Below the pieces are notes generated by a model. It was not told where the DNA came from, did not search any database, and saw nothing but the letters and a program-made list of their open reading frames with translations. A DNA stretch of 30,974 nt, taken from the IMG/VR virus record IMGVR_UViG_3300030419_005252, positions 1-30,974 of that record. The stretch is one strand, 5' to 3'. Source of the stretch: a virus. A program made the position numbers and the translations under genes. This document shows, in pieces, positions 25,441-26,078 of this stretch (positions are counted from its first letter, which is position 1; every line of letters starts with the position of its first letter).

Positions 25441-25619
25441 TGAAATGGTATAGTTATCTTGATGATTCAACGACTGAAGGAGCAGAAGTTTTAGCAGCTG
25501 CTATTGAGAATAATGTGGGCATTAGTTCGGCTATTAATGGAGTTAAGATTTCTGTAGATGGAGATCAGTTAAAGTTTACTGTTGCGGGAGTTGGATCTAC
25601 CAGCTTGACACTCTCATAA
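25440..25619 (+). CDS. small hypothetical protein, 59 aa
   Basis: The start MKWYSYLDDSTTEGAEVLAA is coupled to the preceding gene by TAATG and has AGGAGG at 25426-25431. The second half is beta-like (INGVKISVDGDQLKFTVAGVG). Real coding is likely because the coupling and ribosome-binding site are good. It looks like a small virion accessory protein. Its last codons contain the -35 box of a promoter. Confidence 0.7.
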   Translation: MKWYSYLDDSTTEGAEVLAAAIENNVGISSAINGVKISVDGDQLKFTVAGVGSTSLTLS

Positions 25620-25633
25620 TATAGTGTTATATT
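25605..25633 (+). promoter_or_regulatory. strong sigma70-type promoter with extended -10
   Basis: TTGACA at 25605-25610 (6/6), spacer 17 nt, TATATT at 25628-25633 (5/6) with TG at 25625-25626 (extended -10). RNA would start near 25640 at a TGTTGAG/CTCAACA palindrome (25639-25654), directly before the structured region. It is an early-type promoter within late structural genes. Confidence 0.78.
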
Positions 25634-25656
25634 GTATTTGTTGAGAGCTCAACATA

Positions 25657-25824
25657 GGGAGTGACTGAATAATCTTTCTGGCAAATGCTGGATAAGGTGA
25701 TGAGACACAGGTGGTGCTGCTCCGAAAGGAGAATCGACTTACCAGTCGGGTCTCAGGCAGAGATGTAAAATTTACTACTGTAGTAATGCCCGTCTCTTGT
25801 TGGTAAACAGGAATCCAACCTCCC
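25657..25824 (+). ncRNA. structured RNA candidate or 5' leader, 168 nt
   Basis: GGGAG (25657-25661) pairs with CTCCC (25820-25824) and closes a domain. Inside are TGAGAC/GTCTCA (25701-25706/25750-25755), enclosing CTCC-GAAA-GGAG (25720-25731) and CGACT-TACC-AGTCG (25735-25748). Then follow AGAGATG/CGTCTCT (25759-25765/25791-25797, one G-U) around TTACTA-CTG-TAGTAA (25772-25786), and GTTGG/CCAAC (25799-25803/25815-25819). TCTGGC/GCTGGA (25677-25682/25687-25692) fits with G-U pairs. TTACCA (25739-25744) is complementary to TGGTAA (25801-25806), a possible pseudoknot or alternative pairing. It may be a riboswitch-like leader of the gene at 25848 or a free RNA. manA and wcaG motifs are known from marine phages, but I cannot assign this to either. 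Confidence 0.65.
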
Positions 25825-25847
25825 ACACAACTATTTTGGAGATTTTT

Positions 25848-26078
25848 ATGGAAGAAAATCTAAGACCTGATCTAGGAGAAGATAATATTGAGTATGAAGA
25901 TGAAGAATATTTAATGAAGTGTGTGGTTGATCCTACAAAGAAAACGTTTTACTTATACTCTAGCGAAGGTGATACAAAGAAGGTAGAGTGTGATGATACT
26001 GAGCAGTTTATGAATGTATTGAAGTTAGTACGTGCTACTTGCCCAGAAGATAGGTTAACTTATACAAATCCTCTTTAG
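25848..26078 (+). CDS. acidic small protein behind structured RNA, 76 aa
   Basis: Ribosome-binding site GGAG (25838-25841) lies 6 nt before ATG 25848, so I do not use the in-frame ATG at 25797 inside the folded region. The first 25 residues are very acidic (ENLRPDLGEDNIEYEDEEY). Then come CVVDPTKKTFYLYSSEGDTKKVEC, like a beta hairpin with two Cys, and a helix with FMNVLKLVRATC. I do not recognise the family. It would be the gene controlled by the upstream RNA. Confidence 0.75.
   Translation: MEENLRPDLGEDNIEYEDEEYLMKCVVDPTKKTFYLYSSEGDTKKVECDDTEQFMNVLKLVRATCPEDRLTYTNPL

Follow-up and report, generated by a model that had tools for sequence, protein, structure and literature searches.

The DNA analysed here, referred to as the window, is the whole 30,974-nucleotide stretch of IMG/VR virus record IMGVR_UViG_3300030419_005252. 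On its plus strand, a sigma-70-type promoter is followed by a structured RNA and by a small protein-coding gene, with the following features:

25605-25633 (+): sigma-70-type promoter, with TTGACA, a 17-nt spacer and an extended -10 element, TG-T-TATATT; expected transcript start at about 25639-25641 (from sequence, 11/12 matches)
25639-25829 (+): manA RNA, RF01745, full length (covariance-model match)
25639-25654 (+): 5' hairpin UGUUGA-GAGC-UCAACA, located where transcription is expected to start (Rfam consensus structure)
25657-25661 (+): closing helix P1, 5' strand GGGAG (Rfam consensus structure; covaries in relatives)
25777-25784 (+): hairpin loop region with CUGU (in ACUGUAGU), proposed loop-loop partner of ACAG (sequence comparison)
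25807-25810 (+): loop sequence ACAG, last hairpin, proposed partner of the CUGU loop (sequence comparison)
25820-25824 (+): closing helix P1, 3' strand CUCCC (Rfam consensus structure; covaries in relatives)
25838-25841 (+): GGAG, ribosome-binding site for the 76-aa gene (from sequence)
25848-26078 (+): 76-aa protein of unknown function with domain DUF7294 (PF23966, phrog_662; domain match)

A covariance-model search identified positions 25639-25829 (+) as a full-length manA RNA (Rfam RF01745), matching model positions 1-192 of 192 with 185.9 bits (E = 1.5e-50), against a gathering score of 55.2 bits. This was the sole Rfam 15 match across the whole window, and the model starts about 5 nt 3' of the -10 box. 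The initial annotation had put the locus forward as an undescribed system, a claim that fails now that the RNA proves to be catalogued, and had itself named manA among the families to be searched. It was right that the RNA is structured, with GGGAG and CTCCC enclosing 168 nt, and right about the link to cyanophages, manA being an RNA of marine cyanobacterial viruses. Its boundaries hold for the enclosed part and miss the 5' hairpin, which belongs to the RNA; its statement that the region has no open reading frame holds for the plus strand, and a mechanically called frame occupies 25614-25826 on the minus strand. The folding energy of the window RNA is unremarkable taken alone (z = -1.0; 31 of 200 shuffles fold equally well), but it is the covariance-model match that settles the identity. 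The window contributes one unexceptional copy to an RNA family already known.

Weinberg et al. (2010, PMC2864571) described manA in marine metagenomes and in T4-like cyanophages, and considered it likely to be cis-regulatory and probably a riboswitch; Rfam labels it cis-regulatory. Later work lists it in further cyanophages (PMC9964418). The portions of the manA literature that we found report no ligand and no test of function, and the terms "non-coding" and "ncRNA" are absent from the main text of a light/dark infection transcriptome of phage P-HM2 (PMC5082946).

Helix covariation was assessed in a 64-sequence alignment of relatives, leaving out the 5' hairpin, which is variable and poorly aligned. 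Several Rfam helices show two to six standard pair types with hardly any breaks, among them a 7-bp helix (columns 146-152/179-186) with up to six, so that the stems display the many compensatory changes for which the initial annotation had proposed to look. In P1, relatives have AT in place of GC at the base of the helix and UA in place of AU within it, and the helix is found as GGGUG/CACCC in 18 distinct sequences. Some 80 positions of the alignment are near-invariant, and the unpaired ones are strongly conserved. Pairing between the CUGU loop (within 25777-25784) and ACAG (25807-25810) is preserved in 64 of 64 aligned sequences, and 200 distinct sequences carry the CUGU/ACAG pair. A scan aimed at loops without the initial C, in which the profiled set gave AUGU loops only among the matches listed, found ACAU as the partner in 63 of 67 distinct sequences with AUGU loops and ACAG in none. 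By this comparison the proposed loop-loop contact covaries from CUGU/ACAG to AUGU/ACAU, and it may be the pseudoknot that the discoverers of manA drew tentatively, with a question mark (PMC2864571). The pseudoknot suggested at first from the window sequence, TTACCA with TGGTAA, was rejected: its outer pairs are standard in just 10 and 46 of the 64 sequences, its four inner pairs hardly vary and so provide no covariation in the core, and it competes with a GUUGG/CCAAC hairpin.

Every element of the promoter proposed in the initial annotation is present, with TTGACA at 25605-25610, a 17-nt spacer, TG at 25625-25626 and TATATT at 25628-25633. Scored as matches out of 12 to TTGACA-17-TATAAT, it reaches 11/12; over the 18 kb scanned no sigma-70 match is better and just one other equals it, and that one lacks an extended -10 element. 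Among relatives, 293 distinct upstream flanks were scored; in 285 a promoter of at least 10/12 lies immediately 5' of manA, compared with 8 of 1090 shuffled flanks and 21 of 925 upstream control windows. Judged by sequence, manA has its own promoter at its 5' end, as a stand-alone RNA gene would, and the sigma-70 type of this promoter suggests early expression. In 84 of the 293 upstream flanks (about 1 expected from shuffles), a terminator hairpin overlaps the promoter, with TTGACA falling in its loop and 3' arm and its U-tract serving as the spacer. This overlap, seen for example in loci L041, L009 and L050, forms a combined stop/start element, at which upstream transcripts would stop and manA transcripts would start in one place. 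The window copy has no terminator hairpin around its -35 box.

The relatives were gathered in several searches. A distant DNA search matched 38 phage records, with one match lying only outside the RNA, and a second query gave 42. Pattern scans of IMG/VR returned at least several hundred manA loci, and an nhmmer profile found 431 manA elements in 450 fetched loci; these counts are among the matches listed, and the scans are pattern-biased, so that they describe a sample rather than the whole population. Forty-nine loci end within manA, a pattern to be expected where a sequence common to many population contexts interrupts assembly. Twenty of the 42 records are named as Prochlorococcus phages, with more assignable by host, and most manA isolates infect Prochlorococcus; Synechococcus T4-like phages are far commoner in the collection than Prochlorococcus ones, and blastn may miss divergent copies. 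A strict pattern applied to 84,980 bacterial species genomes, which may miss true bacterial copies, gave 11 matches, only three of which pass Rfam. All three lie in cyanophage-like DNA (L251, L252 and L255, labelled Flavobacteriales, Prochlorococcus and Gammaproteobacteria), and bacterial manA was rejected; those bins therefore contain phage sequence. Several annotated hypothetical proteins that overlap manA (PHM1_121, PHM2_011, PHM2_012, SSSM5_127 and S-TIM4 ORF_135) are probably spurious genes.

The 3' side of manA carries signals of several kinds. In the 308 distinct downstream flanks, a U-tract follows CTCCC within 18 nt in 157 cases, a terminator hairpin lies within 125 nt and ahead of the next gene in 104, and a tRNA gene comes after P1, as a rule 5-20 nt away, in 19. 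These tRNAs are mostly Gly or Asn, and ARAGORN additionally called two Tyr. At least one of the three signals is present in 210 of 308 flanks, compared with 23-33 of 281-303 at control offsets (8-11%); the other 98 have no termination signal ahead of the next gene. In substance the window belongs with the latter, since it was scored as having a U-tract solely through a TATTTT ahead of the ribosome-binding site, which is unconvincing as a terminator. A motif [AC]TAAATA, which we take to be the T4-type late promoter, occurs within 100 nt downstream in 80 of 308 flanks, against about 20 in shuffles and 5-21 at control offsets; because of this enrichment, the next gene seems in many cases to have a promoter of its own.

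Another downstream element, a conserved hairpin AGACCUAAGAUGCAACUC-loop-GAGUCGGGCAGAUGGUCU, lies behind manA in 83 of 308 flanks (e.g., L053:3490-3530) and is absent from the window. When IMG/VR was scanned for this hairpin alone, 36 new loci were obtained among the matches listed; manA is directly upstream in 35, and the remaining one is broken off at a contig end. The outer stem of the hairpin changes from GACC/GGUC to AACC/GGUU and its inner stem covaries too; a comparison of the hairpin with Rfam gave no family with a meaningful score.

In the window, the gene spacing is as described in the initial annotation: 13 nt separate the end of CTCCC from GGAG, which is followed by the ATG of the 76-aa gene at 25848, 24 nt past the final base of CTCCC. 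The CUCC of P1 (25820-25823) can pair with the GGAG (25838-25841) in a weak 4-bp stem of -3.2 kcal/mol. Because the DUF7294 gene comes so close behind, manA could serve as its leader here. In the first sample, a DUF7294 gene stands directly behind manA in only three distinct flanks.

The position of manA differs from phage to phage. Exactly one copy is present in each of 12 complete phage records, at differing sites:

after psbA/ferredoxin: P-SSM7
after regA: P-SSM2
after gp23: S-TIM4, MED4-213, P-HM1, S-SSM5, metaG-MbCM1
after pstS: P-SSM3, P-SSM4
after the NAD synthetase gene adjoining nrdB: P-TIM68
before talC: P-RSM6
before gp32: P-HM2

Mechanically called downstream reading frames fall into 40 unrelated clusters; with the tRNAs and the reciprocal empty sites described below, they do not amount to the consistent association with one gene set that marks a riboswitch. 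Some neighbours recur above the expectation for random placement, gp32 in 33 and talC in 23 of 190 flanks, and two fragments, L104 and MH319758, show two copies or places. The clearest relocation is between P-HM1 (NC_015280) and P-HM2 (NC_015284), which belong to one species and have reciprocal filled and empty sites between flanking genes identical in kind. P-HM1 carries manA with its own terminator between gp23 and a small gene and has none before gp32; P-HM2 carries it between a ferredoxin-oxidoreductase gene and gp32 and has none after gp23. The start region of the gene after gp23, CTAAATAA...GGAGG, is the same with manA (P-HM1) and without it (P-HM2), and in P-HM1 the late-type promoter sequence of that gene is retained 3' of the manA terminator. 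At the site before gp32, P-HM1 has a promoter-like sequence as in P-HM2, but lacks manA. Neither neighbour therefore needs manA in cis, though each phage keeps one.

An own start signal and, often, an own stop signal suggest that in T4-like cyanophages manA as a rule forms a self-contained RNA gene. Its promoter and copy number stay constant as its neighbour changes, whereas a cis-acting switch should follow its target; a discrete RNA is therefore favoured, and manA is probably an independently transcribed RNA that would act in trans instead of switching the adjacent gene. Host sigma-70 polymerase would initiate at the promoter directly 5' of manA, and the transcript, about 190 nt long, would be closed through P1 and locked in shape by the loop-loop contact. 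Its 3' end would form close to P1, whether at the U-tract, at a terminator of its own or by cleavage where a tRNA follows, and the discrete RNA might then have a protein, other RNAs or a small molecule as its binding partner. Where a gene lies immediately behind, as in the window, read-through would add a role as 5' leader. Several findings count against a trans-acting RNA: a promoter and terminator would also be seen in a transcription-attenuating riboswitch, 98 of 308 flanks and in substance the window have no stop signal, gp32 and talC recur, the fragments L104 and MH319758 show two copies or places, and manA is treated as cis-regulatory both in Rfam and by its discoverers.

The strongest rival is the one first proposed, that manA sits in the 5' leader of the neighbouring gene as a metabolite riboswitch, in which either P1 and the U-tract terminate transcription, the aptamer lying inside the terminator, or P1 frees the ribosome-binding site. 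The published classification (PMC2864571), the conserved unpaired positions, which resemble a binding pocket, and the U-tract right behind P1 in about half of the flanks agree with it, as does the CUCC/GGAG pairing in the window, and the HMP-PP riboswitch is a precedent for the terminator-embedded aptamer (PMC6478431). Against it stands a single copy per genome beside unrelated genes, tRNAs and structural genes, while gp32 and the gene after gp23 manage without manA. Sequestration of the ribosome-binding site by CUCC was rejected as a general mechanism, since CUCC is lost in the 18 sequences with GGGUG/CACCC, and so was attenuation by a terminator competing with P1, since the complementarity of terminators to the manA 3' end is not above chance (observed 5.28, permuted 5.50). 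P1 may itself be the terminator stem, in a riboswitch that would regulate whichever gene stands behind it. We regard a riboswitch as rather unlikely; of the two options offered by the initial annotation, a free regulatory RNA agrees better with the comparative data, the riboswitch-like leader being also the published guess. A ligand-free alternative, considerably less probable still, treats promoter and manA as a portable 5' leader unit that would drive strong early transcription and shield or activate whichever mRNA or tRNA follows. The promoter and 5' hairpin do accompany manA to many sites, and the start of a gene or tRNA is often less than 50 nt away, but a plain stabiliser needs neither some 80 near-invariant positions nor a covarying loop-loop contact, and a full terminator precedes the next gene in a third of the flanks (104/308). 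The ordinary folding energy might have suggested a chance arrangement of promoter and helices in AT-rich phage DNA, an idea of negligible probability that the match to a curated RNA family and the clear covariation in relatives already refute.

Taken as a whole, the reading that manA is a single-copy, independently transcribed, site-moving phage RNA that acts in trans in infected marine picocyanobacteria, and that about one-quarter of the sampled flanks carry an undescribed 3' hairpin peculiar to manA, is advanced tentatively. The window copy is routine; the family's arrangement merits follow-up. The comparison gives a new way to ask what this orphan riboswitch candidate does: by seeking a discrete RNA together with its partner, and not a metabolite sensed for a neighbouring gene. 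P-HM1 and P-HM2, two phages of Prochlorococcus MED4 set apart by a natural relocation of manA, offer cultured material for such tests.

Among known systems, the wcaG, PhotoRC-II and glnA RNAs are likewise structured and are listed with manA in cyanophage genomes (PMC9964418); unlike manA, they have no match at the gathering score in the window. The HMP-PP (thiS) riboswitch, described as having a terminator-embedded aptamer (PMC6478431), is alike in that its closing helix may double as a terminator, as P1 with the U-tract might in many manA copies. It differs in having another fold, and manA has no known ligand and no consistent target gene. The closest counterpart is the manA family itself, RF01745, to which the window corresponds at all 192 positions, with the same helices and the same cyanophage setting, and whose own promoter, frequent terminators, single copy per genome and changing neighbours ill suit the label "cis-regulatory."
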